63,346 nucleotides of DNA. Origin: a virus. Of the stretch, positions 24,505 through 62,682 are shown in pieces (within the stretch, counting starts at the first letter, position 1; each line of letters opens with the position of its first letter). The stretch covers positions 1 through 63,346 of IMG/VR virus record IMGVR_UViG_3300033153_008411; one strand, written 5' to 3'. Below the pieces are notes generated by a model, which saw only the letters and a program-made list of their open reading frames with translations, had not been told where the DNA came from and ran no database searches. The position numbers and the translations under genes are program-made.

Positions 24505-24512
24505 TATTTATA
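24505..24512 (-). promoter_or_regulatory. T4-type late promoter
   Basis: The minus strand reads CTTATAAATAAAGT. The TATAAATA box overlaps the last Leu codon and the stop of the family A gene upstream (TTA TAA ATAAAG) and is 28 bases from the 24477 start. Same spacing as the gp25 promoter. Confidence 0.6.
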
Positions 24513-24771
24513 AGACCATTAAATCTATTGCAATTCTTATTGTTTTGTAATCTGCGCCCTCAAATATTACTTTATACCAACAGTATTTATCTTTGATCTC
24601 TTCTTTATCGACACCTTTAATCCGTGGTCGTTTCATTTCATCCCAAAAATCTTTTTCGATCTCTTCTATAGTCAACGGCGTACCCAAATCTTTAGCGTAT
24701 TTAACGAAAGCTTCACAAAATTCTTTAGGTTTTAGCCCTTTATCGTACGGCGATTTATGTGTTTGTTTCAT
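24508..24771 (-). CDS. Family A small protein 9 (YCW family)
   Basis: 87 residues; last gene of the nine-gene family A array. The family core is [YF]CWYK-(I/V)-x4-G-x(5)-x-(I/V)ALxL near the C-terminus; here YCWYKVIFEGADYKTIRIAI, ending DLMVL. An upstream helix includes TIEEIEKDFWDEM, a motif (x-(I/V)E-x-D-F) also seen in its siblings. No homologue recognised; predicted helical and cytosolic. Confidence 0.7.
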   Translation of the reverse strand: MKQTHKSPYDKGLKPKEFCEAFVKYAKDLGTPLTIEEIEKDFWDEMKRPRIKGVDKEEIKDKYCWYKVIFEGADYKTIRIAIDLMVL

Positions 24772-24989
24772 AAAAATCTCAATTCAAGTGCGACCCTTTC
24801 TACTGAACTATTTCTATTTTCAAGAAGTTCTACGTACCAGCAATATATATCAATTAGCTCATTTACTCTATCTGGTTTTTCTTTCATACGCATTTCCAAA
24901 TATTCACCAGCTCCTTTCATTGTAACATTATCAAATATTTTATTGTGGTCTTTAATATATCTTTCAACCTCATCTTTTTTTGTGAACAT
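24768..24989 (-). CDS. Family A small protein 8
   Basis: 73 residues. Core YCWYVELLENRNSSVERVAL ending ELRFL. Starts MFTKKDEVERYIKD. ATGA overlap with the next gene, TAATG-type overlap with the previous one. It lacks the EEIEKDF segment of other members and is the shortest copy. Confidence 0.7.
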   Translation of the reverse strand: MFTKKDEVERYIKDHNKIFDNVTMKGAGEYLEMRMKEKPDRVNELIDIYCWYVELLENRNSSVERVALELRFL

Positions 24990-25228
24990 TATAAAAGCCT
25001 CAATTCTATTGCTGCTAGTTCAACCCTGAAATCTTTACCTTCAAGAATTTCTTTATACCAACAGTATATGGTAAATAGTTGATCCTTCTCATCTCCTTCT
25101 TTGGTACTTCTCAAAACCTTAAAAATTTCTTCTTCAACTCTTTCCATTGTTAAGTCTTTGCCTGCATTTTTAAAATTCTCTGCATTTTCAAGAATTTCTT
25201 TTTTATTTTTTATCATATTATTGTTCAT
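24989..25228 (-). CDS. Family A small protein 7
   Basis: 79 residues. TMERVEEEIFKVLRST helix then core YCWYKEILEGKDFRVELAAI ending ELRLL. Starts in ATGA overlap with the longer family member upstream. The last codons contain GAGG, which can serve as the ribosome-binding site of the following gene. Confidence 0.7.
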   Translation of the reverse strand: MNNNMIKNKKEILENAENFKNAGKDLTMERVEEEIFKVLRSTKEGDEKDQLFTIYCWYKEILEGKDFRVELAAIELRLL

Positions 25229-25683
25229 ATTAATCTGAATTCAAGAACAGATTTTTCAAGCTCATAATTACCACCACACAAAATAACTTTGATCCAACAG
25301 TACGCTTCAATAGCTCGTATTAAATACATAATATTCGATTCACCGAGCTTCCTTGCGTGTTCAAAATATATATCGTAATCGTGTTCTAATTTTTTCCATG
25401 TAACTTCAGTTCCACCTTCACGCATACAATCAATGACTGTTTTCATTCTTTCACGAGTAATAGGATCACTAATATTTGTCATTTGATCTTTATCTCCTGA
25501 TATAGTTAATATTGTATCTGAATAACACCATCTAAACACATTTAATTCACTCTGTCCAGCTATTTTTAGTGCATCTAAAAGATTATTCACCGGTTTGTAC
25601 CAAGTTCCAACTGGAAATTTAGTACCTTTTGAGCCGTACTGAATGTTGATATTTACAGATAAGATAACTTGATCATTTTTCAT
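25225..25683 (-). CDS. Family A protein 6 with extra N-terminal domain
   Basis: 152 residues, twice the family length. The C-terminal ~80 residues are family A (TWKKLEHDYDIYFEHARKLG; YCWIKVILCGGNYELEKSVL; end EFRLI). The first ~70 residues are a beta-like domain (DQVILSVNINIQYGSKGTKF; NVFRWCYSDTILTISGD) not present in siblings. Either a fusion or an ancestral longer form. Confidence 0.7.
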   Translation of the reverse strand: MKNDQVILSVNINIQYGSKGTKFPVGTWYKPVNNLLDALKIAGQSELNVFRWCYSDTILTISGDKDQMTNISDPITRERMKTVIDCMREGGTEVTWKKLEHDYDIYFEHARKLGESNIMYLIRAIEAYCWIKVILCGGNYELEKSVLEFRLI

Positions 25684-25928
25684 AATAATTGAAACTCTAA
25701 AGCGGCTTTTTCTATATTGTAGTCAGCGTCAAATAGAATTTCTTTCAGTAAACAAAATGCGTGAATGTAAAATTCTAGTTTACTTTTACTAGATTTAGTT
25801 TGATTAAAAAATAAAAAATAATCTTTTTCGATCTCTTCCCATGTAGGCATACTATTTGCTTTTCTTCGTTGAATAATTATTTCTTCTAGACTTTCTTTAG
25901 TTAAGGATTCTATGTTGTAATTTTTCAT
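25680..25928 (-). CDS. Family A small protein 5
   Basis: 82 residues. TWEEIEKDYFLFFNQTKSSK, then a variant core AFCLLKEILFDADYNIEKAA (YCW changed to FCL), ending LEFQLL. ATGA coupling to the next gene. The conserved spacing despite loss of the aromatic pair shows that the family drifts quickly. Confidence 0.68.
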   Translation of the reverse strand: MKNYNIESLTKESLEEIIIQRRKANSMPTWEEIEKDYFLFFNQTKSSKSKLEFYIHAFCLLKEILFDADYNIEKAALEFQLL

Positions 25929-25930
25929 TG

Positions 25931-26167
25931 TTATAATAACCTGAACATTAAAGCTGTCAGTTCATTTTCGAAGTTTTTACCATCACTGAGAATGATTTTG
26001 TACCAGCAATAAGCTTCTAATACTTCTTGCTCTGGTTGATAAGAAGATACATCAATCATATTTTTAAAACGATCTTCAACCATTTCGAATGTTAAATCTT
26101 CTTCGTGTGATTTATTATACGCCTTTATTTTATCTATAGCTTGTCTTCTGGTTACTTTTCGTTTCAT
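25931..26167 (-). CDS. Family A small protein 4
   Basis: 78 residues. Basic start MKRKVTRRQAIDKIKAY, FEMVEDRFKNMIDVS helix, core YCWYKIILSDGKNFENELTA, end MFRLL. ATGA overlap with the upstream copy. Confidence 0.68.
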   Translation of the reverse strand: MKRKVTRRQAIDKIKAYNKSHEEDLTFEMVEDRFKNMIDVSSYQPEQEVLEAYCWYKIILSDGKNFENELTALMFRLL

Positions 26168-26403
26168 AATTCTAATAAATCATTAGCTACTCTTACTGTT
26201 TTATAATTTCCACCATTAAGTATAACAATAAACCACGCATAGGCGCATCTGACACCTTCTTTTACCTCTTCTCTTTCATCACCGTTAATAATCTTGATAT
26301 AATCTCTTTTTATTGTTTCTAGATTTGGTTCACTACCCTTTGAATAGTGATCTTGAATCCTTGCTAATACGTCTGTTTTTGTTGAAAGAAAAGCATCAAT
26401 CAT
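26164..26403 (-). CDS. Family A small protein 3
   Basis: 79 residues from ATG 26403, which overlaps the upstream stop as TAATG; a longer reading would start inside the upstream gene. TIKRDYIKIINGDEREE helix, core AYAWFIVILNGGNYKTVRVA, end NDLLEL. GNYK here and in copies 2 and 6 marks a subgroup. Confidence 0.67.
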   Translation of the reverse strand: MIDAFLSTKTDVLARIQDHYSKGSEPNLETIKRDYIKIINGDEREEVKEGVRCAYAWFIVILNGGNYKTVRVANDLLEL

Positions 26404-26657
26404 TACATCTCCATAAAATCTAATATTATTTTGTGTTTTTTGTAAGTTCCACCCAACATGGCTACTCTCCAGCAAGCAATTATTTTATTACGTGTATCTA
26501 TACTGTAACGATTTTTTAATACATAACGCCAATTATTTTCAATTGTATTAAGAGTGTCATAAATATCACCGTCTGCTAAATCTTCCTGGATTTCTTTTAT
26601 CATTTTTTCAGGAGTAATTTCTTTCCAATAGTCATCTGATACTGTCTCTCTTTTCAT
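26403..26657 (-). CDS. Family A small protein 2
   Basis: 84 residues. NTIENNWRYVLKNRYSID helix replaces the usual EEIEKDF, core ACWRVAMLGGTYKKHKIIL, end DFMEM. TAATG overlap on both sides. Confidence 0.65.
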   Translation of the reverse strand: MKRETVSDDYWKEITPEKMIKEIQEDLADGDIYDTLNTIENNWRYVLKNRYSIDTRNKIIACWRVAMLGGTYKKHKIILDFMEM

Positions 26658-26941
26658 TACATTTCCATTAGTTCTAAAGCTAGTAGCTCGTGCTCTATGC
26701 TACCATACCCACGGTATATTATTTTGATCCAGCAATAGGTTCTACGAATATATTCTTTATCCCAATCGCTTTCTGATGGACTACTTGATCTATTTAAGAG
26801 ATATTTGTACTCTTTCTCTAATCGCTCAAAAGTGTATTTCTCTCCTCTTGCCTCTTCCAAAACCAACAATCTTGCTTCTACATCTGCTCTTGTTGGTTTT
26901 GGTTCGAATGCAATAGGATCAAATTTTGGTCTGATACCCAT
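26657..26941 (-). CDS. Family A small protein 1
   Basis: 94 residues from ATG 26941 (MGIRPKFDPIAFEPK), just after the preceding stop; the eight-codon upstream extension would overlap that gene. FERLEKEYKYLLNRSSS helix, core YCWIKIIYRGYGSIEHELLA, end LELMEM. First gene of the array in transcription order. Confidence 0.68.
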   Translation of the reverse strand: MGIRPKFDPIAFEPKPTRADVEARLLVLEEARGEKYTFERLEKEYKYLLNRSSSPSESDWDKEYIRRTYCWIKIIYRGYGSIEHELLALELMEM

Positions 26942-26942
26942 C

Positions 26943-27299
26943 TTAATCAAACAAAGATTTGTCAATTCTTATAAAAGGTACACCTTTGATTCCCATGTCC
27001 ATTTCAAAAAAACTGATATTCGGATCATTAACCACGACTATCATTTTATCTTCATCGACATCGATTGAGAAATCGGTAACATTGCGCTCTTGCATAGATA
27101 GTGCCAAATCGCTTAAATATTCTGGATCAATTTGATAAACGTATTTGTCATCATCCATATAATCTAAGAATTTATCTTTGACAGGTTCAAGGATTTCTTT
27201 CGTTACAAATTCCTTTCCAGCTTCTTTTATACTATCCGTTGCAGCATCAATAATTCGATCAGCAATCAGTTGTAAAATTATTGAAGTTGTTATAATCAT
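26943..27299 (-). CDS. Hypothetical protein with hydrophobic N-terminus
   Basis: 118 residues. Residues 1-22 are hydrophobic to amphipathic (MIITTSIILQLIADRIID), too polar for a sure membrane span; the rest alternates helix (KDKFLDYMDDDKYVY) and beta strands (DKMIVVVNDPNISFF). A good AAGGAGAAAAA ribosome site precedes ATG 27299. No family recognised. Confidence 0.6.
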   Translation of the reverse strand: MIITTSIILQLIADRIIDAATDSIKEAGKEFVTKEILEPVKDKFLDYMDDDKYVYQIDPEYLSDLALSMQERNVTDFSIDVDEDKMIVVVNDPNISFFEMDMGIKGVPFIRIDKSLFD

Positions 27300-27308
27300 T
27301 TTTTCTCC

Positions 27309-27950
27309 TTATATTAGAATTGCTTCAATTCGTGGATCTTCTAATTCTTGTACGACTTTGATATTTACTTCATCGTCATCGTAAAATTTGATGTGCTCAA
27401 ATCCCATCCGATTAGCAAATATTTCTTGTAGAACAAATGCTTTCAGATATTCATTTCTTAGTATCCTTAAATCAAGATCTGTTAATTCATTCAATGAATT
27501 TATTGTTGCTTCATCTCGAACAGCGAACGTGTACTTCTTTCTGAGTTGTGTTCTTGGAATTGGTTTTAAGACTCCGTGTGGATCTTTGTATTCAAGGATA
27601 GATTTTAAGCCGAAAAGGACACCCCTTTGATCACCCCTAGCAGTCAATATACCGATTTTATCACCCCGGTTAACTGCATTGTCCAATTCGGCAAAAATAT
27701 TTTTGTTTACTTTTCCGTTTGCTATGGTTTTGTATACATTGTCAAACCCCTGAAAATCGTCGTAGTCAACTTCGGCGTCTTCTGATAGGGTTTGTCGGAT
27801 TTCAGCCCACTCTCTTGTTGTTGCTTCGTGCCATTCTTCTGAAAGTGGATCTTTGTACCTTATTTTAGCTGATGAGTGTATCAAACAATCATCGACATCA
27901 AATACTGAAATAATTTTTTTTTCTTGTATGTATTCTTTGAAATTCTCCAT
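27309..27950 (-). CDS. HAD-superfamily phosphatase/nucleotidase-like
   Basis: 213 residues. HAD motif I FDVDDCL (about 17-23, with the two catalytic Asp), motif II ILTARG (about 100-105), and a motif IV-like FYDDDEVNIKVV near 190. A helical cap lies between I and II. HAD enzymes of this size in phages act as nucleotide or polynucleotide 3'-phosphatases, but the substrate cannot be read from sequence. Its start lies 53 bases inside the end of the transglycosylase gene, an unusually long overlap. Confidence 0.75.
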   Translation of the reverse strand: MENFKEYIQEKKIISVFDVDDCLIHSSAKIRYKDPLSEEWHEATTREWAEIRQTLSEDAEVDYDDFQGFDNVYKTIANGKVNKNIFAELDNAVNRGDKIGILTARGDQRGVLFGLKSILEYKDPHGVLKPIPRTQLRKKYTFAVRDEATINSLNELTDLDLRILRNEYLKAFVLQEIFANRMGFEHIKFYDDDEVNIKVVQELEDPRIEAILI

Positions 27951-28557
27951 TCGTTACCATTATAAAAATTGATTCGTTAATATACAAGGCTAAGGTTAAT
28001 TCTGTCTTGTGGAAATACTTATAGAATCTCCTTAAGCCTCTTACTACTTTAGCGTAATATTCGGCCTTATTTTTACTTCCATTGTACGATGAAACAGCAC
28101 AATGAAATAGGTTGATGTAACCTTTTTCTTTAATTATACCACGCTTTATCCAGTTTTGGCAATACTCTTTTTTCTTCTGGAAAATAAATGTACCGGCGTT
28201 GATGTTTATATACGGTATATATAAATCTCTAGTTCGACCAACAATTCCACGCTTGATTAAATTATCTTTATTTCTTTTGTTTTTTATCCAAACAGTTCTG
28301 TTGATCTGCATTAACCCATAATTTCCTTTGCTTCTAGCCCAACGATTAAAATCACTTTCCACTTGATTAATGACTAAAATTACAACCGGATCGTGATTTC
28401 GTTTAGCGGAATACTTGATAATGTTCTGACTTATCAGTTTTACATCCATTGTGGAAATTTTCGGGTTTTCAGCTCTTATGTAATCTTCGAAATTGTTTGC
28501 GTACGCAAAAAAAGAGTAAAAGAATACACAAAAAACCAATATTGATTTTTTTAACAT
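27898..28557 (-). CDS. Secreted lytic transglycosylase (SLT-like)
   Basis: 219 residues. A clear signal peptide (MLKK plus ~14 hydrophobics ending FFAYA) points to export to the periplasm. Catalytic Glu in VINQVESDFNRWA (about residue 70) is followed by GNYGLMQIN, the hallmark of SLT goose-type transglycosylases, then AVSSYNGSKNKAEYYAKVV. It would cut peptidoglycan between MurNAc and GlcNAc, as a lysis enzyme or at entry. About 35 residues after the domain (IMVTNGEFQRIHTRK) overlap the HAD gene and may be a recent read-through extension. Confidence 0.85.
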   Translation of the reverse strand: MLKKSILVFCVFFYSFFAYANNFEDYIRAENPKISTMDVKLISQNIIKYSAKRNHDPVVILVINQVESDFNRWARSKGNYGLMQINRTVWIKNKRNKDNLIKRGIVGRTRDLYIPYININAGTFIFQKKKEYCQNWIKRGIIKEKGYINLFHCAVSSYNGSKNKAEYYAKVVRGLRRFYKYFHKTELTLALYINESIFIMVTNGEFQRIHTRKKNYFSI

Positions 28558-28603
28558 ACATCCTCAAAATTTAATTAATAAAAGATTGATTCCTTTACAG
28601 GAC

Positions 28604-29323
28604 TTATCCTATAAAGAAATCTACGGGTAACGACAATTCTTCCCTAAGTTCAGTCTCCAGTTTTTCTATTTCTTCTTTCGCTTCGGTTAAAATAGTTTGT
28701 GCATCGGTCGTTAGACCACCCGGCAACATAGACCCCGTATATTTGGTAAGATTTTGACCCCACTGATATTTTGTCAGTGCGGTTGAATAGTCCCTTATCC
28801 AGTGATGATCATATATAGGTGAAGTATCTGTTTTGTCTACATACTCATAATATAAAATACCCATCTGCATTGATGTTATTGGTATCTGAATAAAGGTTAA
28901 TTTTTTGGTAGTTGTGTTGTAATTAAATATTTCTTTAATTCGTAAATAGAAATTTATTGTCTCAATTTCTTGACGTGCTAGTTCTAATGTAAACAGTCCA
29001 CCTGTCTTTGTCAAGTGCATTCCGTATTGATCTGCTAATAAACGTCCCGGAAAAACAGCATCAAATTTGTATTCTGTTGTATTGTATACGTCACGAATTG
29101 AATGAACATCTTCATCCATTGTGTAACTTCTTGTTCCAGCTTCAACGTTAATAGTCTTAAACATTAAATTAGTACCGTCATCAGCGTGTTCAATGAACGT
29201 ATCAACTGTTCTATTAATTGCGTGTCTAATCTGTTTTTCGTGAACTTCAACTCGAATTACGGGTTCACCAAGCCGTTCTTTTATATACTCTATCAATTCA
29301 GATAGAGAGTTTACATAAGCCAT
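28604..29323 (-). CDS. Neck/head-tail connector-like structural protein
   Basis: 239 residues. LSELIEYIKERLGEPVIRVE...QIRHAINRTVDTFIEH at the start and HHWIRDYSTALTKYQWGQNL...GSMLPGGLTTDAQTILTEAK...LPVDFFIG at the end match the pattern of T4-like neck or structural proteins in cyanophage and pelagiphage-type myoviruses. I am sure of a virion structural role, less so of gp13 versus gp14. Likely expressed late from the TATAAATA box at 29824-29831. Confidence 0.65.
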   Translation of the reverse strand: MAYVNSLSELIEYIKERLGEPVIRVEVHEKQIRHAINRTVDTFIEHADDGTNLMFKTINVEAGTRSYTMDEDVHSIRDVYNTTEYKFDAVFPGRLLADQYGMHLTKTGGLFTLELARQEIETINFYLRIKEIFNYNTTTKKLTFIQIPITSMQMGILYYEYVDKTDTSPIYDHHWIRDYSTALTKYQWGQNLTKYTGSMLPGGLTTDAQTILTEAKEEIEKLETELREELSLPVDFFIG

Positions 29324-29343
29324 ATTAAATTACTCAAAAAGAA

Positions 29344-29703
29344 TTATTTTTTATTTTTTTTACCCCAAGCACTCTTTTTTTTCTTAAATGCTGGTTTGAC
29401 CTCTTTTTCGACTTCTGTTTCTGTTGTTTCAGTCTCTTTTTCGGCCTTTTCTTCTTCTTTTATTTCGTTTAATACTTCCGGTTTTGGTGCTGGTTTTAAT
29501 TTAATTGGTGCTGGTACTTCAGTTAATACCGCTGGACCATCAGTTGATTCACCTTTAACTTCAATAAAAATAGTCGGATAAGCTGTTGCTATTGCTTCGT
29601 TTTCGATTATTTGGCCATGTTTAAATACTAAATTTCCACCTATTGATGGTGGTGATATCTCTACTTGTACACCATTACGTGCGTGTGTTACCCACTTTGC
29701 CAT
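29344..29703 (-). CDS. Hypothetical protein with charged tail
   Basis: 119 residues. A small N-terminal beta domain (WVTHARNGVQVEISPPSIGG, AYPTIFIEVKG), a Pro/Ala linker, then an acidic Glu/Thr run and a basic KKKKSAWGKKNKK end. No family recognised. It sits directly upstream of the neck gene and overlaps the nuclease gene by 29 bases, so a structural role is possible. Confidence 0.6.
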   Translation of the reverse strand: MAKWVTHARNGVQVEISPPSIGGNLVFKHGQIIENEAIATAYPTIFIEVKGESTDGPAVLTEVPAPIKLKPAPKPEVLNEIKEEEKAEKETETTETEVEKEVKPAFKKKKSAWGKKNKK

Positions 29704-30403
29704 GATATTTCCTCTTTAATTTGATTTTGTGTGGATGACAGTAATTGCCGTTAAAATCACAATACTGACAATTCCAACTTGCATTTAGATCGAAATCTTT
29801 CTCAGATTCAATCATCTGTATTTTATTTATAAAATATTGTTTAATATTCTCAAGCTCTGATCTCTGGTAGATGAAATTAGTCTTTACACTGTGTTCCACG
29901 TAAAATAAAGAGCTATCAACAGTATTTATCTCTGGGTATTTTAATAATATCCATAGTGCGTACAATTTTAATTGATCACTTTCAGTTTTGTTGTACACTT
30001 TACCTGTTTTCCAATCAAGAATTTCAGCTTGATCACCATTTAAACAATAATAATCCACAAAACCTCGAAATAAAGAGGATTTTTCTGTTCCGAATCCTTC
30101 ACTAATTTTTAGTGTTTCTTCTCGGCTAACATTCTCCTTTAATAATAGTGTTTGAATAGCTGTATCATTAAGAATTTTTGTTAATATTTTTTTCCATAGT
30201 TTGCGTTCTTTATCACCAGCTAATGAAAATTTAAACCTTGTATTTGGTATCTTTGGCCAGTGTTCTAACGCAAAATGAATATATTTTCCCTTTTCAAAGA
30301 AGATCTTAGGTACTTGCGGTACTTTAATTTTATCTATGTACTTTAATTTGAATTGTTGTTTACAATTATCAAAACATCCAAGTTTTGATGCTGAGTATGG
30401 CAT
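29675..30403 (-). CDS. PD-(D/E)XK nuclease, Cas4/RecB-like, with Fe-S-type cysteines
   Basis: 242 residues. YSASKLGCFDNCKQQFKLKY is the usual start of the PDDEXK_1/Cas4 class; catalytic residues are in RGFVDYY (about 118) and EILDWKTGK (about 131-139, the D-x-K), followed by the QxxxY helix in SDQLKLYALW. Four or more Cys (N-terminal C10/C14 and a C-terminal CQYC...C cluster) suggest an iron-sulphur cluster like Cas4 and AddB. It probably processes DNA ends in recombination or replication and sits just after the gp32-like gene. Confidence 0.82.
   Translation of the reverse strand: MPYSASKLGCFDNCKQQFKLKYIDKIKVPQVPKIFFEKGKYIHFALEHWPKIPNTRFKFSLAGDKERKLWKKILTKILNDTAIQTLLLKENVSREETLKISEGFGTEKSSLFRGFVDYYCLNGDQAEILDWKTGKVYNKTESDQLKLYALWILLKYPEINTVDSSLFYVEHSVKTNFIYQRSELENIKQYFINKIQMIESEKDFDLNASWNCQYCDFNGNYCHPHKIKLKRKYHGKVGNTRT
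29824..29831 (-). promoter_or_regulatory. Possible T4-type late promoter inside the nuclease gene
   Basis: The minus strand reads TTTTATAAATAAAATA. The box is an exact TATAAATA match inside the nuclease coding sequence, 121 bases before the 29703 start. It could drive the two following late genes without the nuclease. In AT-rich DNA a chance match is possible. Confidence 0.35.
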
Positions 30404-31507: not shown

Positions 31508-31738
31508 CTAAAAGAATTCGTCGTTGAACGTACTCTTCAAGTTTTCATTTTTAACCACCCGCTTTTTCTTGAATTCAGCTTTAATCTTTTCGATTAACGG
31601 GCGATTCAGATCTAAAACTATTTCTTCTGGATCGTGGCCATTCATCTCACAATATTCTAGAAACGATTCAATATACGTTAGTCCTGTTCTTTGTTTGTGG
31701 CTTTCAATATGATGATCCATTCCTTTAGGCATATCCAC
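31508..31738 (-). CDS. Late transcription coactivator, gp33-like
   Basis: 76 residues (T4 gp33 is 112). The core TYIESFLEYCEMNGHDPEEI, then LNRPLIEKIKAEFKKKR and a short hydrophobic/acidic end (STFNDEFF) match the phage late-transcription coactivator family, which links RNA polymerase to the sliding clamp; the C-terminal end resembles the clamp-binding tail. It has its own strong sigma70-type promoter. Its presence agrees with the TATAAATA promoters in the window. Confidence 0.7.
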   Translation of the reverse strand: MDMPKGMDHHIESHKQRTGLTYIESFLEYCEMNGHDPEEIVLDLNRPLIEKIKAEFKKKRVVKNENLKSTFNDEFF

Positions 31739-31803: not shown

Positions 31804-32034
31804 TTACAGATCAATTAATTTTAGAGCTTCTATTTTAGCTGGTTTAACAGTCGGCATAGGATAAGAGTTAATAATACTCAATTTAATAGAAAGAGGTTGA
31901 TCGGGATCATCTAAAAAACAGTTGTCGTGCCACCCTGTTGTTTTTGTTGGATTTGTTTCCAATGAAGCGTACACAACATCTTCATTAGAGATTTCTTTTT
32001 TAGAGATCAGTTTTTTACAATATATACATATCAT
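31804..32034 (-). CDS. Family B zinc-ribbon protein 10
   Basis: 76 residues; last of ten family B genes. Metal site CIYC (3-6) plus WHDNC (about 37-41), a C2HC treble-clef/LIM-like arrangement. The C-terminal helix ends ALKLIDL. Followed by the gp33 promoter. No specific homologue recognised. Confidence 0.72.
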   Translation of the reverse strand: MICIYCKKLISKKEISNEDVVYASLETNPTKTTGWHDNCFLDDPDQPLSIKLSIINSYPMPTVKPAKIEALKLIDL

Positions 32035-32333
32035 AATTCACCTAATTCGTGCGAAACAATTATTGATTTTAATTTAGAAAATTCTCTGATAATATTTTTT
32101 TCTGTTTCGTTCAATTTTTTTCCGTATTTTTTATCACTTAGTAAGTTGTAGTATTGTTGAATTGCACGATTTTTTGTTTCTGGTTCTATATTTTTGTTTT
32201 TAAAAAAGCACTTAGGGTGAAACGGTAATCTTTTATCACCTATTGAATCTATCGGTTGATATGCTCGAATGTCTCCATCGTATATTCGTTTTTTGCATTC
32301 TCGGCATATTACGTATGTTTTTTTCTCTTTCAT
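32031..32333 (-). CDS. Family B zinc-ribbon protein 9
   Basis: 100 residues. CREC (10-13) and FHPKCFFKNKN (about 37); an extra ~25-residue charged helix before the end (SHELGEL). ATGA coupling on both sides. Confidence 0.72.
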   Translation of the reverse strand: MKEKKTYVICRECKKRIYDGDIRAYQPIDSIGDKRLPFHPKCFFKNKNIEPETKNRAIQQYYNLLSDKKYGKKLNETEKNIIREFSKLKSIIVSHELGEL

Positions 32334-32575
32334 AGCATTGTAAATTCGAGTTTTAGTAGTTCTTTTTCGAATAAGTCAAGCGCATTTTTATATTCAGGAT
32401 CACGAATTCTGCGATAGTACAAAACAAATTCTTGTTTATCTTTTATTGGAATATTATTTGATTTCAGGTAACATTCAATGTGATATTGATGACTATATAA
32501 ATGTTGAATACGTACACTACCTTCTGGAATCAATGCGCCACAAAATTCACAATGATCATCTAATTCTTCTTTCAT
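32330..32575 (-). CDS. Family B zinc-ribbon protein 8
   Basis: 81 residues. CEFC (9-12), YHIECYLKSNNIPIKDKQ, then a helix ending KLEFTML. The HxxC-[FY]-[FL] block is the second half of the metal site in most copies. Confidence 0.72.
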   Translation of the reverse strand: MKEELDDHCEFCGALIPEGSVRIQHLYSHQYHIECYLKSNNIPIKDKQEFVLYYRRIRDPEYKNALDLFEKELLKLEFTML

Positions 32576-32811
32576 AAATCCATAAAATTTAATGATTTAA
32601 CTTCAATCGGATAATTAGCGAATATATCTGGATGTTCTTCGATTACTTCTTTTTTTAACTCTGTACTAACCGCTGTAGTCATTAAAAAGCATCTATGATG
32701 AAAATGTTTGTCTTTAGAAATATCACCACTTTCATCTTCAATGAGTAATGCATCGTCGGTATCTTTTTTGGGAATCTCTTTATTACAATAATCACAAAAA
32801 TATTTTATCAT
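32572..32811 (-). CDS. Family B zinc-ribbon protein 7
   Basis: 79 residues. CDYC (6-9), KHFHHRCFLMTTAVSTELKK, end SLNFMDL. Close to copy 5 (33062-33292), which has HYHYKCFVLSENV and the end LLMDL. Confidence 0.72.
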   Translation of the reverse strand: MIKYFCDYCNKEIPKKDTDDALLIEDESGDISKDKHFHHRCFLMTTAVSTELKKEVIEEHPDIFANYPIEVKSLNFMDL

Positions 32812-33062
32812 AATTTTGAAAAGCTTAGGTTTAAAAGCTCACCGTTAGTAATTTTTCCAATTTTTATGTAATGTTCTATCTCTTCGTCTGTCAGCAAAAT
32901 CACTTCACCTTTTTTAAACCGACACCACCTATGTTCAGCACGAATACCGAAATTATCAGAATCTACTTCCGGGAAATAATAATACGCACATTTTGTATTA
33001 TTTGGTATGTTAGGCTCTACCGGTTCGCCACATATTTCACATTTAAGTATCTTATCATCCAT
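32808..33062 (-). CDS. Family B zinc-ribbon protein 6
   Basis: 84 residues. CEIC (8-11) and HRWCRFKKGEV; the following ...YIKIGKITNGELLNLSFSKL is the longer tail form also found in copies 1-4. TAATG overlap with the upstream copy. Confidence 0.72.
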   Translation of the reverse strand: MDDKILKCEICGEPVEPNIPNNTKCAYYYFPEVDSDNFGIRAEHRWCRFKKGEVILLTDEEIEHYIKIGKITNGELLNLSFSKL

Positions 33063-33292
33063 TACAGATCCATTAATAGATAAGGTGCCATTTCTTTCTG
33101 TAAGAAATTAAAATGTTTAGGAAAATTTTTTAAAGCACCGAGTTTTTCTTTCGGTGGTACATTTTCACTCAATACAAAACATTTATAGTGATAATGAAAA
33201 TGTTTATGTTCATCTTCACTTCTTTGCGGATTGAAATTGATATAAGATCCAGTAATTTCTTTTTTACAATGATCGCAATTTATAGTTATCAT
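33062..33292 (-). CDS. Family B zinc-ribbon protein 5
   Basis: 76 residues. CDHC (6-9), FHYHYKCFVLSENVPPKEK, end PYLLMDL. ATGA coupling to the upstream gene. Confidence 0.72.
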   Translation of the reverse strand: MITINCDHCKKEITGSYINFNPQRSEDEHKHFHYHYKCFVLSENVPPKEKLGALKNFPKHFNFLQKEMAPYLLMDL

Positions 33293-33519
33293 ATTGTTCT
33301 AAGCCGGATAGCTACAAGCTGACTTTTAGTGAATACACCATCTTTTATATATTGTGCTTCAGCTTCTTTGTTTTTGTAAACAAAGATGGTATGACACGGT
33401 GTACACATAACATCGTACGGTTTATTTTTATTAACAAAATCATTTTCATTGCGCATCCAGTGTACGGCATTGGTTAAATCTTTTCTGCAATAATAACAAT
33501 ATATTTTAGGATCTGTCAT
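33289..33519 (-). CDS. Family B zinc-ribbon protein 4
   Basis: 76 residues. CYYC (8-11) and a second pair CTPC (about 40-43) in place of H-x-x-C, so this copy could form a four-Cys site. Tail DGVFTKSQLVAIRLRTI is the long tag form. Confidence 0.72.
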   Translation of the reverse strand: MTDPKIYCYYCRKDLTNAVHWMRNENDFVNKNKPYDVMCTPCHTIFVYKNKEAEAQYIKDGVFTKSQLVAIRLRTI

Positions 33520-33737
33520 AATAACCTTAATTTAAGGCTAAGGATTTCAGCTTCAGTGAAAATACCTTTTTTTATTCGATCTTTTTTAACCGATTCATTA
33601 TTTAATAAAAAAATCAGTACACAATCATTGTGGGCTTTTTGAAATGATGTTCCATCATACGTACCACTACTATAATCATCATCATCCCATAATTTCTTTT
33701 CACAAATGGAACACGAACCTATTTTTTTGTATCTCAT
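33516..33737 (-). CDS. Family B zinc-ribbon protein 3
   Basis: 73 residues. CSIC (8-11) and AHNDCVLIFLL; tail KGIFTEAEILSLKLRLL. An Asp-rich turn (DDDDYS) lies between the metal-binding halves. Confidence 0.72.
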   Translation of the reverse strand: MRYKKIGSCSICEKKLWDDDDYSSGTYDGTSFQKAHNDCVLIFLLNNESVKKDRIKKGIFTEAEILSLKLRLL

Positions 33738-33973
33738 AAATTTTGTAATTTAATTGCTAAAATTTCGGCTTTAGTGAAAATACTTTTTTCGATAGCACGT
33801 TTTTCCATTTTATGAGATGATCTTATAAAAATCCAATCACACAACAAATGAACATATCCTGTATTTTCATTTACTTTGCCGTGAATTATCATCCCCGCTC
33901 GGTCAACTGTAATTGGTTTCTTACATATCGAACAGGTAGGCTCTATGTTATAAAATGTCACATTGACTCCCAT
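33734..33973 (-). CDS. Family B zinc-ribbon protein 2
   Basis: 79 residues. CSIC (14-17), then YVHLLCDWIFI; tail KSIFTKAEILAIKLQNL. Overlaps the end of the upstream copy by 16 bases. Confidence 0.72.
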   Translation of the reverse strand: MGVNVTFYNIEPTCSICKKPITVDRAGMIIHGKVNENTGYVHLLCDWIFIRSSHKMEKRAIEKSIFTKAEILAIKLQNL

Positions 33974-34263
33974 TTAATTTTTAGAATTTCAGCTTGTGAC
34001 AGGATATTTTCTTCGATAACTTCTTTTTCGATAATTTCATTTTCTTCTTCAAAAATCTCGTGACAGTGGTAGTGAGCAGCACCTATAACCATTTCTCTTT
34101 TACGAGATTTGGAGTTAAGTACACCGTAAAAAACACTTTGCGAATTATGTAATGATCTACCGCAATAATAACAATCACCTTCACCTAATTCACTTAATTT
34201 GATTTCGTGAAATTTTTTATTACTTATACCATTACTTCTATTCTTTAAAGTTTTTATTTTCAT
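33958..34263 (-). CDS. Family B zinc-ribbon protein 1
   Basis: 101 residues from ATG 34263, in ATGA overlap with the DUF4258-like gene; the longer reading lies inside that gene. CYYC (about 31-34), AAHYHCHEIFEEENE, tail ENILSQAEILKIKWESM. The first ~25 residues are a basic extension missing in other copies. Confidence 0.7.
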   Translation of the reverse strand: MKIKTLKNRSNGISNKKFHEIKLSELGEGDCYYCGRSLHNSQSVFYGVLNSKSRKREMVIGAAHYHCHEIFEEENEIIEKEVIEENILSQAEILKIKWESM

Positions 34264-34505
34264 ACTACCCAACATGTATGAAGTTTTCTTTCTTTTTGAT
34301 CGGTGATAATGCTTACAAAACCCCGTGAAGTTCGGGCTGATATAATGTGCCGGTCTTTCCAATTTTCTCGTTTAACGTGTTCCCTTTTGGTTAGAACTTC
34401 AATGACATCTTTTTCCGAGATCTTTCTTAATGCCATTCGATCTCGGAAATGCTCTAAAGCTTTTAAACCAAGAATCTTTTTTGGAACTATTATACGGGTT
34501 CTCAT
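34260..34505 (-). CDS. DUF4258-like small protein
   Basis: 81 residues. ALEHFRDRMALRKISEKDVI then VLTKREHVKRENW and RTSRGFVSIITDQKERKLH-TCWVV resemble DUF4258/BrnT-like domains (helix followed by antiparallel strands), a group that includes RelE/ParE-like RNase toxins. No antitoxin-like partner is apparent. It does not carry the C-terminal tag of its neighbours. Confidence 0.55.
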   Translation of the reverse strand: MRTRIIVPKKILGLKALEHFRDRMALRKISEKDVIEVLTKREHVKRENWKDRHIISARTSRGFVSIITDQKERKLHTCWVV

Positions 34506-34512
34506 AAGACTC

Positions 34513-34821
34513 CTATAATTTTATAAAATAAAATAATGCTTCTAATTTAGATTTTGATTTGAAGACATACCTATTATCAACCATCCATTGTAAAGTATCA
34601 GGTGGTATAGGAGATTTCCATTCAAGATATTTTACAGGAACGTATATTGGCGAATCTTTGGTACTGGTTTTAAGCTTATGCTGTCTTGTTTTTATGCAAA
34701 ACGGGGCAGAACCTTTACCGCGTGGAAAAGATTCTTCTGGCTGCCTTTTTTCTAAATCTTTAATAATTTCTTTTAATTCCGGTAAATAATAAGTTACTCC
34801 ATTTAATTTTCGTCGTTTCAT
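34513..34821 (-). CDS. Hypothetical protein, paralogue of 35476-35757
   Basis: 102 residues. The last ~35 (LEWKSPIPPDTLQWMVDNRY, then LEALFYFIKL) align with the end of the 35476-35757 protein (W-x-P, LxW, Y, (L/I)(D/E)x(I/L)xxFI(K/Q)). The N-terminal half is basic and unrelated. No known family. Confidence 0.62.
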   Translation of the reverse strand: MKRRKLNGVTYYLPELKEIIKDLEKRQPEESFPRGKGSAPFCIKTRQHKLKTSTKDSPIYVPVKYLEWKSPIPPDTLQWMVDNRYVFKSKSKLEALFYFIKL

Positions 34822-35475: not shown

Positions 35476-35757
35476 TTAAATTTGTATAAATTCGATTATT
35501 TCATCTATATTTGGGTACTCATTTTTACCGTACCCGCTCTTTAGTAGCCATTTAAGACTATTTAAAGACATTCTTGGATTCCAATTTGCTGTTGGTTGAT
35601 TGATAATTTCTTCTTTGTATTCTATCGGCCAATCATGAATCATCATATCTGGCCTAGAAAAAATATTTACTAATTCTACGTACAATTCGATTGTTATAGG
35701 TTTTAGCATTGTATCGTAAATAGAATCTTGCATGAATCTGGTTTTTTCTCTTTCCAT
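35476..35757 (-). CDS. Hypothetical protein, paralogue of 34513-34821
   Basis: 93 residues. N-terminal helix (TIELYVELVNIFSRP), C-terminal NWNPRMSLNSLKWLLKSGYG and IDEIIEFIQI shared with 34513-34821. TAATG overlap with the upstream gene. Confidence 0.62.
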   Translation of the reverse strand: MEREKTRFMQDSIYDTMLKPITIELYVELVNIFSRPDMMIHDWPIEYKEEIINQPTANWNPRMSLNSLKWLLKSGYGKNEYPNIDEIIEFIQI

Positions 35758-58311: not shown

Positions 58312-59496
58312 TTATGTGGACTTAATTTCTTTAGTCATCTTGATAACCGCTTCGAACAATGTATGATCATTCTTATCAACGTCATCAAGTACATCCACAA
58401 TCATTCCGGCATCATAAGTATTAGCCATTTCAGCAACTTCTTTCATCATGACTATACTCATGTCTTTATCAGCTTTGGCAACTGAACTGGCAAGCTTACT
58501 AAAGGTTCCAATTAAGTCTTTCAACTTTTTGTCACCTTTGGTATCTTCTTTATGAGTCATGTACCGGTCAATGTACTCGTAGGCCATCGCCATCGTAAAT
58601 ATAAACATGTTAGTGGAATCGGTTTTGAACTTGAAATTCTTTCTGTCAAAAACCGCCGATGTATCGATTTTTGAGTACAGTTCGTAATACATTGAAAATT
58701 CTCGGCCACCTTCAGGACCGACATGACCACCAGCACGAAACATAACTTCTGGCAGTTTGACATTATCGCTGGTACGCTCAACTGAGCTATCCAAAGCGAG
58801 TGAAAATTTATGCCAAGAACGTGGTGAACCCCACGGCTCTTTTGAATTTTCATCTTCGTGGAAGAATTTCAGGTTTGACTTCTTAGCCAGAAAAGTGGTG
58901 ATGATCGGATTAATGCTGTGTTTCATTGCCCACTGTCTCCAATCTTCAAAGTCAGCAACTACGTTATAAAAAGCAACTCGGTTGGTAATGGCAGAAAGCA
59001 TGGTTTTTGCACCAGCTCTTGCACCAGGATTACCAGCAAGCATAATGTGCGTATTCCTTGGAAGATCGTAACCTTTCAGGGAATAATCGGTAAACAACTG
59101 AAAACAGAATTTTTGGTTTTCAGGACTCGCAAGGTGAAAGTCATCCATAAAAAGGATCACACCTTTATGTTTTTCGGAAAGTTCCATCAACTCAGTAATC
59201 ATGTCAGGGAAAGTCCAGCGGGTACCTTCAACCTTTTCACCGTTGACAACGATCTTATGAAACTGAGGCAGACCGGTCATTTCTTCGATGGTTTTGGTTG
59301 ACAAATGGACGGTCAATATCGCCCAATCAACAGCTTTGACTTTTGCTTCTAACATCTTGGTTTTACCAGCACCGGGGGGAGATACAACGAATGGTACGGC
59401 TGGTAATGCTTCCGGGTTCCACGGGTTATTCCGCATAGCATCGTAGAACAGCATTTCAAGGGTTTCTTTCAATGACATCGTGGTGTTAAGTTCCAT
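58312..59496 (-). CDS. MoxR-type AAA+ ATPase
   Basis: 394 residues. Walker A VSPPGAGKTKML (about 38-49), Walker B GVILFMDDFHLAS (about 111-123), sensor 1 IMLAGNPGARAG (about 146-157). The sequence fits the MoxR/RavA group, which acts as a chaperone or remodeller with a VWA partner; the partner is plausibly the 60615-62006 protein. Early promoter 59545-59574 and box TAGGAGACAAAAATATG upstream. Client and purpose unknown. Confidence 0.78.
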   Translation of the reverse strand: MELNTTMSLKETLEMLFYDAMRNNPWNPEALPAVPFVVSPPGAGKTKMLEAKVKAVDWAILTVHLSTKTIEEMTGLPQFHKIVVNGEKVEGTRWTFPDMITELMELSEKHKGVILFMDDFHLASPENQKFCFQLFTDYSLKGYDLPRNTHIMLAGNPGARAGAKTMLSAITNRVAFYNVVADFEDWRQWAMKHSINPIITTFLAKKSNLKFFHEDENSKEPWGSPRSWHKFSLALDSSVERTSDNVKLPEVMFRAGGHVGPEGGREFSMYYELYSKIDTSAVFDRKNFKFKTDSTNMFIFTMAMAYEYIDRYMTHKEDTKGDKKLKDLIGTFSKLASSVAKADKDMSIVMMKEVAEMANTYDAGMIVDVLDDVDKNDHTLFEAVIKMTKEIKST

Positions 59497-60006: not shown

Positions 60007-60206
60007 GACTTTTTTTTATCTAAATTGAATATTTTTGCGTGATGCTCTGTAATATTTTTTAAAGCTAGGTGAATTCCGATAGCCATTGCTTTATCAATTG
60101 ATTTGGATTTTTCATCAACAACTTTTGTGTAATCTTCTACCATGTTGATTAATGTTTTATGAAATTTTTCAATTTTATCTCTGTCTTTTGTTTTAACTGA
60201 TATCAT
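60003..60206 (-). CDS. Hypothetical helical protein
   Basis: 67 residues, all-helical and charged (DRDKIEKFHKTLINMVEDYT; AMAIGIHLALKNITEHHAKI). ATGA overlap with the repeat protein upstream; its end overlaps the -35 of the next promoter. Not recognised. Confidence 0.6.
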   Translation of the reverse strand: MISVKTKDRDKIEKFHKTLINMVEDYTKVVDEKSKSIDKAMAIGIHLALKNITEHHAKIFNLDKKKS

Positions 60207-60625
60207 AATTTCATTAGCTCGATGCTTGGATGTGGGTTTCTTATCAAATCGGTGACATCCGCTTTAACAGCTATTTTTTGCATTTCCAAAGACGGATACT
60301 CAACGTACCGGATTAAATGCGGCTGTTCTTTGATTAATAAATCAATTGTTTTCGGTTGAACATTTTCTAACAAATCAAAAAGTTCTTTCACGCCTTTTCT
60401 CATTGGGTATTTTGGAAATGTTACTGTTGGTTCGTTTTGCAATAATACTTTAGTTGTTGTTACAGCGATACCAACACGAATACCTTTTTCATTAAATATA
60501 ATTTCACCCGGTTTAAATTCACGTTTACCGGTGTATTTTTGGATAATAGATTGTGAAAAACCCACTATACCCGTATCGACTACAGTGGTTTCAACAGTCA
60601 AATAATCTGATTGTTTAGGCGGCAT
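60203..60625 (-). CDS. DUF4116-like repeat protein with N-terminal domain
   Basis: 140 residues. N-terminal ~80: small beta domain (SIIQKYTGKREFKPGEIIFN; RVGIAVTTTKVLLQNEP). C-terminal ~60: repeat units LLIKEQPHLIRYVEYPSLEM and QKIAVKADVTDLIRNPHPSI, end ELMKL. The last repeat is nearly the same as the end of 47707-48789 (VHPAIDLMSM). Overlaps the VWA gene by 11 bases. Confidence 0.66.
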   Translation of the reverse strand: MPPKQSDYLTVETTVVDTGIVGFSQSIIQKYTGKREFKPGEIIFNEKGIRVGIAVTTTKVLLQNEPTVTFPKYPMRKGVKELFDLLENVQPKTIDLLIKEQPHLIRYVEYPSLEMQKIAVKADVTDLIRNPHPSIELMKL

Positions 60626-62006
60626 TTTGCAGATTCCTAGGAATCTTAACCGTAATTGGTTCGTTATCCACGAACTTTGGTACTTGACCGATCATATGCC
60701 GACCTTCGGGAATCATGATTTGAATCGGAATATCTTCAACCCATCCGTATTGCTTGGATTGAACTAATTCTTCGATATCAGATTCAAAGTCAGTGATGAT
60801 AAGAACAATGCCGATTCCTTCATCTTCGGCGTACAGCTCTTCGATCCTATCAAAAACCTCTTTATGAGAAGTTCCACCACGACCTTTAACTTGTAACAAA
60901 TCTTCGACTGAAATTTCACCTTCATAATATTTTTCATCAAGAATATTCCAATCGTGCTTGATAACGTACATATTCTGGAAAAGATCATCACAGGCTTTTA
61001 CAGCACCCGCCGCAACTTTTAATTCGGTGTCACTAATTGATCCAGATGAATCAATTACACTTATAGCACCGTCTAGCAGCTCTTCTTCACCGTGACCGGA
61101 AACAGTCAAACCGATTCCTTGGTAAATTCGATTTAAACTTCTCCAAGATCGGTTTTCCATACTTGGCATCATTTTCCGGGATATTGCTCTTGCTAACAAC
61201 TGTTCAGTAGGGATGTCAACTCGAATCATATCTTCTAGCATTCCTACAACCGCACCAGAACCGGCACCACGACCACGTTCACCATCAGCTTCATGAGTGT
61301 GGCGGATTTCGTTCAATGCACGATCAACTAAATCTTTCTCAGCATCACTCATATCACCGGGCGCACTTCCATCTTGTTTTTCATCACCATCACCATCACC
61401 ATCACTTTTACCACTACCTTTAGGATCTTTGATATCGATATCGATGGTAACTGAGTTACCTTGCTTGTCAGTAAAAGTTACCTGATTCCCATCACCTGAC
61501 ATTGTGACAGTAATTTTATTTTGCTCTTGTTTTTTCTCAAGATATTCATAAGCCTCTTCAACCGTGATTTTTGAGTCAATATCATTATCACGAATAAGAA
61601 AAATTTTATCTTGTGGTACTTTAATCGGTAAAATACCATCATTGGCATCTTGAAGTAAAACAGTGTTGATTACATGATCACCGGCAAGATTAAACAAACC
61701 GGGATGCCGACCACCACGCCTTTGTTGGTGCTTATGTAGCGGATGAAGCATTTCATGAAGCAATGCAAAACGAATTTCATTTACAGCCCACTTATCAACT
61801 AAGTCTTCGTGAATCATAATATGAAATTTTCGTTTGATTGGATTGAAGAAGACGCAAGCTGTCTTACAGAAATGTTTTTCACCTTTTTCAAGCGTTATAT
61901 CGTAGTGATACAGGATAGTTTTGAATAGTGAAAATTCTTTCTTAAGCATGATTGACATAATTGCCAACTTTAGCTTTTCGTCTAATGGTGTCAAACTTTC
62001 TGCCAT
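60615..62006 (-). CDS. Metallopeptidase-like/VWA protein (DUF2201-type), MoxR partner
   Basis: 463 residues. Zinc-protease motif LHEMLHPLHKHQ (about 83-94, HExxH with a further His) in the N-terminal domain, a Gly/Asp/Ser-rich linker (about 195-225), and a C-terminal VWA-like domain with MIDAS SVIDSSGSISD (about 313) and VLIITDFESD. This matches the putative metallopeptidase plus VWA family often encoded near MoxR ATPases. Promoter 62051-62080 and box AAAGGAGACAAAAAATG. Whether the HExxH is active is not shown. Confidence 0.8.
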   Translation of the reverse strand: MAESLTPLDEKLKLAIMSIMLKKEFSLFKTILYHYDITLEKGEKHFCKTACVFFNPIKRKFHIMIHEDLVDKWAVNEIRFALLHEMLHPLHKHQQRRGGRHPGLFNLAGDHVINTVLLQDANDGILPIKVPQDKIFLIRDNDIDSKITVEEAYEYLEKKQEQNKITVTMSGDGNQVTFTDKQGNSVTIDIDIKDPKGSGKSDGDGDGDEKQDGSAPGDMSDAEKDLVDRALNEIRHTHEADGERGRGAGSGAVVGMLEDMIRVDIPTEQLLARAISRKMMPSMENRSWRSLNRIYQGIGLTVSGHGEEELLDGAISVIDSSGSISDTELKVAAGAVKACDDLFQNMYVIKHDWNILDEKYYEGEISVEDLLQVKGRGGTSHKEVFDRIEELYAEDEGIGIVLIITDFESDIEELVQSKQYGWVEDIPIQIMIPEGRHMIGQVPKFVDNEPITVKIPRNLQNAA

Positions 62007-62050
62007 TTTTTGTCTCCTTTAGAGATTGATTTTTTACTTGGTATGCCTAA

Positions 62051-62080
62051 TTAAAACACAAACAAAATAACTCTGTCAAG
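62051..62080 (-). promoter_or_regulatory. Sigma70-type promoter for the VWA gene
   Basis: TTGACA (62075-62080), 18-base spacer, TTTAAT (62051-62056) on the minus strand, 45 bases before ATG 62006; same form as the AAA+ gene promoter. Confidence 0.7.
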
Positions 62081-62087
62081 TAAAAAT

Positions 62088-62273
62088 TTATAGAATTACA
62101 AAAAAGAATTCACGGTGAAGAATACTTTTACTTGCGTACTTATATAGTTCTGGATATTTTTTATGTATTGCAAGTTGTTCTTTGAGTGTTTTATTCATAA
62201 ATAATTCATCAACTTCTTCTCTGGTAGGGAAAAATTGAACTTTACCCCGTTCAGGTGGGAATTTTATTTTCAT
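62088..62273 (-). CDS. Hypothetical small protein
   Basis: 61 residues. FPPERGKVQFFPTREEVDEL, helix LKEQLAIHKKYPELYKYASK, end REFFFVIL. ATGA overlap with the previous small gene. The EQLAIHKKYPELYKYASKSI stretch faintly recalls the DUF4116-like repeat. Confidence 0.6.
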   Translation of the reverse strand: MKIKFPPERGKVQFFPTREEVDELFMNKTLKEQLAIHKKYPELYKYASKSILHREFFFVIL

Positions 62274-62434
62274 AATAATCTAAACCGAATCATAGTCATT
62301 ATTTTTTTATCACGTACAGCTTTTTTTCTCCACGACATAAATTCTTCAAAGGCTGTATCAAACGGAGTTTTTTTATCAAGTACAACAAAATCTCGGAAAT
62401 ACTCAAATAAAGCACATTCTTCGGCGATTGTCAT
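62270..62434 (-). CDS. Small tagged helical protein
   Basis: 54 residues: ATG 62434 (ATGA overlap with the previous stop) to TGA at 62270-62272. MTIAEECALFEYFRDFVVLD, then DTAFEEFMSWRKKAV and the end MTMIRFRLL, like family A tails. Coupled on both sides, which supports it as a real gene. Confidence 0.62.
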   Translation of the reverse strand: MTIAEECALFEYFRDFVVLDKKTPFDTAFEEFMSWRKKAVRDKKIMTMIRFRLL

Positions 62435-62682
62435 AATAATATAAATTTTGCTTCTGGTGTTAAATAATCTTCATCATAAAAAACATCAGGATTGTTTTTA
62501 ATTAGTTCAAGCTGTTTTTTAGTATCGGACGTATATAATTGCACATGGAAAAGAATTCGTTTATCAATTTCATCTGTGATTTCTTTTGAAAGTTGCTTTG
62601 TTAATTCATCGTCAAATTCAGATTTAAATTTTTGAGTCATATCAATTGAATATTCAACTTTTAATTTTCTTGATTTTATCAT
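62431..62682 (-). CDS. Hypothetical protein with C-terminal tag
   Basis: 83 residues. KFKSEFDDELTKQLSKEITD helix, YTSDTKKQLELIKNNPDVFY, end PEAKFILL. The KQLELIKNNPDVFYDEDYLT section is like a single DUF4116-type repeat. ATGA overlap with the radical SAM gene. Confidence 0.6.
   Translation of the reverse strand: MIKSRKLKVEYSIDMTQKFKSEFDDELTKQLSKEITDEIDKRILFHVQLYTSDTKKQLELIKNNPDVFYDEDYLTPEAKFILL

Follow-up and report, generated by a model that had tools for sequence, protein, structure and literature searches.

Gene content of the window

The window analysed here (63346 bases, 33% G+C) is the IMG/VR record IMGVR_UViG_3300033153_008411, from an uncultured phage, and the element in question is a short C-terminal tail common to about fifty of its small proteins. 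It covers part of a T4-like myovirus genome. Phage-tail and baseplate genes extend up to 24 kb and are followed by non-structural genes, among them gp32-type (recognised by eye), gp33-type (phrog_254), rIIA-type and primase genes. From 24508 on, small overlapping minus-strand genes form arrays and are grouped in paralogous families. Genes were called by a simple open reading frame rule, and every gene at 24 to 63 kb was read to its end, including the last codons and the bases that follow. For counting, a protein was scored as tailed if it had [LFMW]xx[LMI] at its C-terminus.

The common C-terminal tail

The tail is real and far above chance in two genomes, the window and a second T4-like contig, IMGVR_UViG_3300033153_009458 (151141 bases, loci L098-L105; hereafter G001). 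Reading of all C-termini gave about 51 tailed genes between 24508 and 62682 (43 by automatic gene calls), which bears out a preliminary description of this DNA that had placed a common tail on about fifty small proteins there. The core is [A/S]-x-[DE]-[LF]-[M/I/x]-x-[LM] at the C-terminus, often after [ST]-x-x-E, and the full consensus of 7 to 13 residues is [ST]-x-x-E-[ILV]-x-A-x-[DE]-[LF]-[MI]-[DEN]-[LM]-COOH. Conserved positions are -10 (E), -7 (A/S), -5 (D/E), -4 (L/F), -3 (M/I) and -1 (L/M/I). In families E and B the conserved stretch includes positions -13 to -10, where [ST]-x-x-E resembles an N-cap, and the likeness over 15 residues between family E PTNAEIAAYEFCKL and family B FTKAEILAIKLQNL, to which the same description had drawn attention, is genuine. 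All 28 tails sampled align at the C-terminus without gaps; PTEKEIIAIELGCL, AHDFMEL and LTKKEKIAFDLGTL are examples from three unrelated families. The net charge of the tail is acidic, its end is a free hydrophobic carboxylate and mean hydropathy peaks at -8, -7, -4 and -1, giving an amphipathic profile.

The strict form of the motif (A.[DE][LF]..[LM]$, where $ is the C-terminus) was found in 14/117 window genes, against 0.02 expected when the last 25 residues are shuffled, and in 12/294 G001 genes, also against 0.02 expected. It occurred in 0/592 unselected genes of unrelated phages and, at offsets 1 to 10 from the end, in no gene of the window or G001. A looser form ([AGSC]..[LF]..[LMI]$) ends 31/117 window genes (0.55 expected) and 4/592 genes of unrelated phages. 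The back-translated tail followed by TTATGA has ten matches on the coding strand, whereas the opposite strand has none. Structural genes (3036-23547) have no tails except for one chance loose match (11339-11917, HTLRLI).

Tailed genes of the window

C-termini were read together with their codons, and families A, B, C1/C2 and E come from sequence comparison. All genes given below are on the minus strand; the type of junction is added for some of them. Family A (YCW proteins) comprises 24508-24771 (AIDLMVL; last of its array and uncoupled, with TAA and no overlapping start), 24768-24989 (ALELRFL), 24989-25228 (AIELRLL; TAATG), 25225-25683 (VLEFRLI), 25680-25928 (ALEFQLL), 25931-26167 (ALMFRLL; next start directly past the stop), 26164-26475 (ANDLLEL), 26403-26657 (ILDFMEM; TAATG) and 26657-26965 (ALELMEM; TAATG). 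The zinc ribbons of family B lie at 31804-32034 (ALKLIDL; last of its array, uncoupled), 32031-32333 (SHELGEL), 32330-32575 (KLEFTML), 32572-32811 (SLNFMDL), 32808-33062 (NLSFSKL), 33062-33292 (PYLLMDL), 33289-33519 (AIRLRTI), 33516-33737 (SLKLRLL, extended FTEAEILSLKLRLL), 33734-33973 (AIKLQNL, the extended form of which was given above) and 33958-34362 (KIKWESM, weak).

Beyond the zinc ribbons, tails were read at 34513-34821 (LFYFIKL; G001 homologue 49356-49694), 35476-35757 (IIEFIQI), 35757-36191 (TRDLMLL; TAATG) and 37596-37856 (KHIFMVL; TAATG). Family C1 is represented by 37853-38152 (ARDLMEL), 38438-38698 (AEDLMEL) and 39039-39347 (ANGLMNL), and C2 by 38149-38436 (KLAFTEL), 38695-39042 (IKDFLEL) and 39344-39643 (KYLFIAL, weak). 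The two-pass membrane proteins of family D are encoded at 43051-43305 (YQEFMKL), 43302-43547 (IKEFMHL), 43544-43813 (AHDFMEL, identical to the tail of G001 69285-69587), 43810-44232 (IKDFQEL) and 44085-44408 (IKKFIQL).

Family E begins at 45111-45362 (last of its array, uncoupled), where the tail is degenerate (HYDLMKR) and the -1 residue has been lost. It continues with 45359-45589 (AYQLKKL, in PTEAELLAYQLKKL), 45586-45801 (AFHFGDL), 45798-46001 (GHRLGDL), 46001-46276 (GMQLGNL; TAATG), 46273-46521 (AFNLGDL), 46518-46796 (AYELTNL), 46787-47044 (AIELGCL), 47032-47241 (AYEFCKL, the family E member of the 15-residue pair), 47238-47465 (AIQLGHL) and 47462-47764 (AFDLGDL). DUF4116-like proteins have tails at 47707-48789 (AIDLMSM, on a DUF4116-like C-terminal part; TAATG), 48860-49246 (VVDLMDM; uncoupled) and 60203-60625 (SIELMKL), and a single 304-residue protein at 50155-51069 (uncoupled) ends in AATLMEL. 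Possible, weak tails end the genes at 62088-62273 (EFFFVIL; uncoupled), 62270-62434 (MIRFRLL) and 62431-62682 (EAKFILL). Families A to E and the three DUF4116-like proteins are thus as the preliminary description had them. The uniformity of the tail that it reported holds overall, except that the last family E gene ends in DLMKR and the AEDLMEL type is one of several.

Two genes of the same region serve as controls. The gp33-type late-transcription coactivator (31508-31738, minus strand; phrog_254, E = 1.2e-11) ends in KSTFNDEFF, and 27309-27950 (minus strand) starts with MENFKEYIQEK, which resembles an N-terminal capsid-targeting sequence (CTS); neither has the tail. Near the end of the window an ATPase gene (phrog_1297) lies close to a gene for a 463-residue protein (58312-59496 and 60615-62006); the sole phage-database match of the latter, from Sinorhizobium phage Phosso, adjoins a gene annotated there as an AAA-ATPase.

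Gene overlap and protein-level constraint

The tail could be a by-product of gene overlap if the ribosome site of the next gene and the ATGA junction fixed the last codons. Most tails do stand at ATGA junctions, and the most variable tail positions, -3 and -2, partly track the ribosome site: GGTGAT yields Gly-Asp there, as in the LGDL ending encoded as ..AGGTGATTTATGA. To this extent the preliminary description, which had ascribed part of the tail to the ribosome site, was right. However, the next start overlaps by four bases at ATGA junctions and by one base at TAATG junctions, a shift of one codon, so that a tail caused by the ribosome site should change register at TAATG. It did not. [LF]xx[LMI] stands at the very end of 26/32 ATGA, 8/15 TAATG and 4/19 uncoupled genes in the window and of 21/59, 5/15 and 8/110 such genes, respectively, in G001; one codon inward at TAATG junctions it was found in 1/15 window and 0/15 G001 genes. 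Uncoupled tailed genes are 24508, 31804, 48860 and 50155 in the window and 20266, 24649, 43215, 48065, 60950, 62282, 63994 and 99869 in G001, where 101400 has a short gap.

Residue choice also tells against overlap, and columns that played no part in selecting the tails are enriched. Met is the last residue in 5/34 non-ATGA tails and cannot be encoded by an ATGA overlap; M at -3 is found in 15/34 of these tails. A or S occupies -7 in 31/45 coupled tails, and -5 is acidic (D or E) in 28/45 of the coupled tails and in 19/34 of the others. The third codon base of -4, -5 and -7 is free (0.02 to 0.09 bits), in contrast to the residues there (0.9 to 3.0 bits), a value that is partly circular at -4, since tails were chosen by their residues at -4 and -1; the residues at -7, -5 and -3 were not used in this choice. 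In other AT-rich phages even the loose motif is rare among ATGA-coupled genes (9/206), which most often end in Lys. Gene overlap is therefore refuted as the sole cause of the tail, and as a full explanation it is barely credible; the tail is under protein-level constraint. The preliminary description had argued that overlap leaves the conserved residue at -7 and the tails of uncoupled genes 48860 and 50155 unaccounted for, and both points stand. It had also named two outcomes that would favour a by-product: loss of the tail from uncoupled genes of a relative, and codon conservation that follows ribosome-site bases only. Neither was observed.

A distant relative with the same tail

In IMG/VR, rIIA, gp32 and gp6-like proteins used as baits gave no relatives, and a ribonucleotide reductase bait recovered loci without the tail. 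Scans of IMG/VR with a DNA pattern that combined one junction and one tail, run with three gap ranges, each recovered G001, the sole contig dense in tails among those scanned, which may not include near-identical records of the window's phage. G001 encodes gp43, gp41, UvsX, gp46/47, gp49, gp55, gp45 (phrog_223), gp44, portal and terminase. About 40 of its proteins are tailed; their genes form three arrays (20-30, 47-50 and 68-71.5 kb, the last between the helicase and UvsX genes) or stand singly. Few families are common to the two genomes: zinc ribbons, DUF4116-like proteins, the pair 34513/G001 49356 and one C1 member.

A tail profile trained on the window, with a cut-off that 1% of 635 unrelated phage genes passed, matched 39/293 G001 genes (28 with -4 and -1 masked) and, at other offsets, 0 to 2. 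The reverse test, with a G001-trained profile, matched 29/102 window genes (20 masked). Homologous pairs keep the tail: the zinc ribbon 33062-33292 (PYLLMDL) has a G001 counterpart of 40% identity at 101400-101636 (PYELMDL), and the DUF4116-like protein 48860-49246 (VVDLMDM) one at 60950-61753 (KLKFMTM), both genes of the latter pair being uncoupled.

Whole-record DNA scans gave 10 tail-like junctions each in the window and G001, and 0 or 1 in T4, RB69, phiM12, S-SM2, LR756500, Phosso, SCTP-2 and Atu_ph07. In a scan of genome contigs, each locus among the matches listed had at most one looser-motif tail, and literature searches gave nothing relevant on phage proteins that have a C-terminal tail in common. 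Eight tail-like DNA matches in another contig (G010, 184-187 kb; L198 10682-16018) proved to be a repeat artefact: eight near-identical DNA repeats within a gene for a 1778-residue protein mimic the tail junction in antisense. Loci L017, L027, L043, L047, L049, L053, L063, L142, L176, L183 and L187 were set aside as not a multi-family phenomenon; each has a few tandem paralogues, of one family only, that end in ADELEAL or ANELEAL before an overlapping junction.

HNH/homing-endonuclease-like genes are present in several copies in both genomes (window 22915-23547; G001 75779, 79787, 98719, 109265 and 136134), with up to 55% identity between them, above that of other genes.

Protein bodies to which the tail is attached

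When the tails of 89 tailed proteins were stripped, the bodies fell into 57 sequence components (BLAST, E 0.01), an upper bound on the number of families, since diverged paralogues account for many of the singletons. The bodies are clearly of at least five types: zinc ribbon, two-pass membrane, all-helical, beta domain and DUF4116-like repeats. AlphaFold2 models of the all-helical family E (predicted local distance difference test score, pLDDT, 91) and of a G001 beta domain (pLDDT 87) place a predicted tail helix past the last domain element in two different folds, at residues 74 to 81 in the family E protein 46787-47044 and within three residues of the last strand in the beta domain. Searches with the family E model against viral models and with the DUF551-like beta model against the PDB gave nothing significant, and a PDB profile search with the tail alignment gave weak internal matches only (best E = 0.17).

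The beta domain belongs to a tandem expansion of about 15 DUF551-like proteins in G001 (20266-30008). Salmonella phages SETP7 and S4lw encode a small protein related to this family (E 0.02-0.07), a Jerseyvirus homologue of the beta domain, and the structure of the G001 family matches DUF551-annotated proteins (SETP7, probability 0.98). The Salmonella sequence matches all stop at query residue 74, where the Salmonella proteins end (..WDIVKYRVIK*), but the G001 protein, with the same body, runs past this point (..YDILKWRRL-NKSEVVAMELSEL) and thus has a 13-residue tail that its homologues lack. Similarly, DUF4116-like proteins of Salicola phage SCTP-2 and Agrobacterium phage Atu_ph07 have the NPSxxxQxxAV-type repeats of 47707-48789, 48860-49246 and 60203-60625 but, unlike the window proteins, end without the tail, as does that of ctwe8250. 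As these relatives of the domains are tailless, the tail looks, from these comparisons, to have been appended. Origin of the tail from half a DUF4116 repeat was considered and not adopted: the Pro-to-Ala spacing is off by one and the tail follows the repeats.

Common ancestry or structure offers another account, in which the tails represent the C-terminal helix of a single ancient scaffold, or a common 3' end spread by junction recombination, and have no separate function. Array families are indeed paralogues, the helix is confidently modelled, and recombination at junctions would carry the tail along with the next ribosome site. Yet the bodies include zinc ribbon, beta, all-alpha, membrane and repeat proteins and remain in 57 components once the tail is removed, domain relatives without the tail exist, and the same residues are kept across the differing bodies against which they would have to pack. 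We regard this explanation as unlikely.

Possible role of the tail

The tail occurs on folds that are unrelated, has persisted in a distant relative and on uncoupled genes, and is missing from some relatives of the same domains. As it is carried by proteins that are otherwise unalike and only by small non-structural genes, it is consistent with a handle for docking on one partner. The tail may be a C-terminal peptide for docking or sorting that a single common partner most likely recognises, a proposal with about an even chance of being correct. Such a peptide would be an acidic amphipathic helical segment of 7 to 13 residues with a free hydrophobic carboxyl end, which a lineage of T4-like phages has added to many small non-structural proteins unrelated to each other. 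The partner that recognises it could be phage- or host-encoded, and through this one handle an arsenal of small, fast-diversifying proteins would converge on one place or machine. The best precedents, the N-terminal CTS and the interchangeable C-terminal clamp-binding motif of T4, belong to the same phage group.

The tailed proteins are probably early. This is suggested by the non-structural gene content and by good sigma-70-type promoters that directly precede two of the arrays (window 48823, G001 30009). Near-consensus sigma-70 promoters (TTGACA..TATAAT) lie at window 48823 and 31768 and at G001 30009, all on the minus strand, directly upstream of array E, the gp33/gp32 region and the first G001 array, respectively. 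Over the whole window the number of sigma-70-type sites is at chance level.

Several points weigh against a docking peptide. A partner was not found in this analysis, and both binding and a single partner are what we infer; one partner for two-pass membrane, zinc-ribbon and helical proteins would be unusual. The tail is present in two genomes only, and its conservation within orthologues rests on few pairs. AlphaFold2 is confident in the tail helix in both models, so that the helix may pack on its own domain.

The main rival to docking is a degradation tag, with self-association and a structural leftover less likely. The tail would then be a C-degron for a host AAA+ protease (Lon, ClpXP or FtsH) that makes early proteins short-lived. 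Bacterial C-degrons are short C-terminal peptides (PMC8138137), and a hydrophobic terminal residue with a free carboxylate, a place at the extreme C-terminus and occurrence on many unrelated proteins, all from small non-structural genes, would suit one. However, helix-type conservation to -13 with an N-cap-like [ST]xxE appears to exceed the needs of a simple C-degron, and the ends are [LF]xx[LMI], not LAA as in ssrA-type degrons, nor do they seem MuA-like; they are acidic, not basic. Overall a degradation tag is rather unlikely.

Going beyond docking as such, the tail may, tentatively and with somewhat less than an even chance, be a genome-wide C-terminal address tag of a T4-like lineage, distinct from the CTS and clamp tags, through which dozens of small, unrelated and fast-diversifying proteins, all with one docking helix, act via a single receptor (a hub, condensate or machine), much as a targeting signal acts through its own receptor. 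The small accessory genes of large phages mostly lack a known function. If the docking proposal is true, one tag links 40 to 50 accessory proteins, much phage 'dark matter', to one partner or common pathway, and suggests a shared terminal address usable on many more proteins than the T4 CTS and clamp motifs. The tail is also a sequence handle for spotting such proteins in other genomes.

Comparison with known terminal tags

Encapsulation peptides of bacterial microcompartments, short helices at a protein terminus, assemble as trimers and bring about condensation of unrelated cargo (PMC12339742). The tail resembles them as a terminal, probably amphipathic helix common to unrelated proteins, and self-association, in which tails bind one another and co-assemble their proteins, has this precedent and the hydrophobic residues at -8, -7, -4 and -1 in its favour. 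Encapsulation peptides are longer, though (about 18 residues, against 7 to 13), and usually have a disordered linker, whereas the tail often comes directly after the fold; no compartment is known here, and no search aimed at shell genes was made. Self-association is very unlikely.

The T4 CTS is a short terminal peptide common to otherwise unrelated proteins of a T4-like phage (PMC9026906), as is the tail. It differs in being N-terminal (MxxFxxF-type), about 10 residues long and removed by gp21, and CTS-like genes form a separate set here. In the head region of G001, CTS-like N-termini (MKTFKEYI, MKTFKQFL, MESFKTYI) are on other genes, all without the tail, and head targeting in G001 thus seems, from its sequence, to have its own tag. 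Because N-terminal CTS-like tags sit on other genes, packaging of the tailed proteins via the T4 CTS route is unlikely. The preliminary description had allowed for targeting, packaging, partner binding or degradation; a common signal is supported, and packaging by this route is the part that fares badly. Near the portal gene (G001 109756-119090) the CTS-like starts read MKTFKEYIMES, MKTFKQFLNEE and MESFKTYIAEG, and a 1384-residue PARP-domain protein there, with a CTS-like start, looks like a packaged Alt-type ADP-ribosyltransferase.

In T4, gp43, gp55 and gp33 bind the sliding clamp by a C-terminal motif whose copies are interchangeable between proteins (PMC2988020). Docking of the tailed proteins on the phage gp45 clamp by such a motif could be considered, as the T4 ends (gp43 SLDFLFG, gp55 SLDFLYEAND) and that of RB69 gp43 (KKASLFDMFDF) have a hydrophobic-acidic pattern like ILDFMEM, the motif passes between unrelated proteins, and gp45 is present in G001. 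But three proteins have it in T4, against some fifty with the tail here, membrane proteins carry the tail, and the lineage's own clamp partners end otherwise (G001 gp43 KITDEWY, G001 gp55 TDQIKI, window gp33 STFNDEFF). T4-type clamp binding appears weakened by these sequences and is highly improbable. The ends of the window gp33-type protein (31508-31738, NDEFF) and the G001 DNA polymerase (64346-66895, TDEWY) may themselves be the clamp-binding motif of this lineage, unlike LDFLF in T4. By analogy, the tail would work like the T4 CTS and clamp motifs and, as far as tested, be a member of neither.

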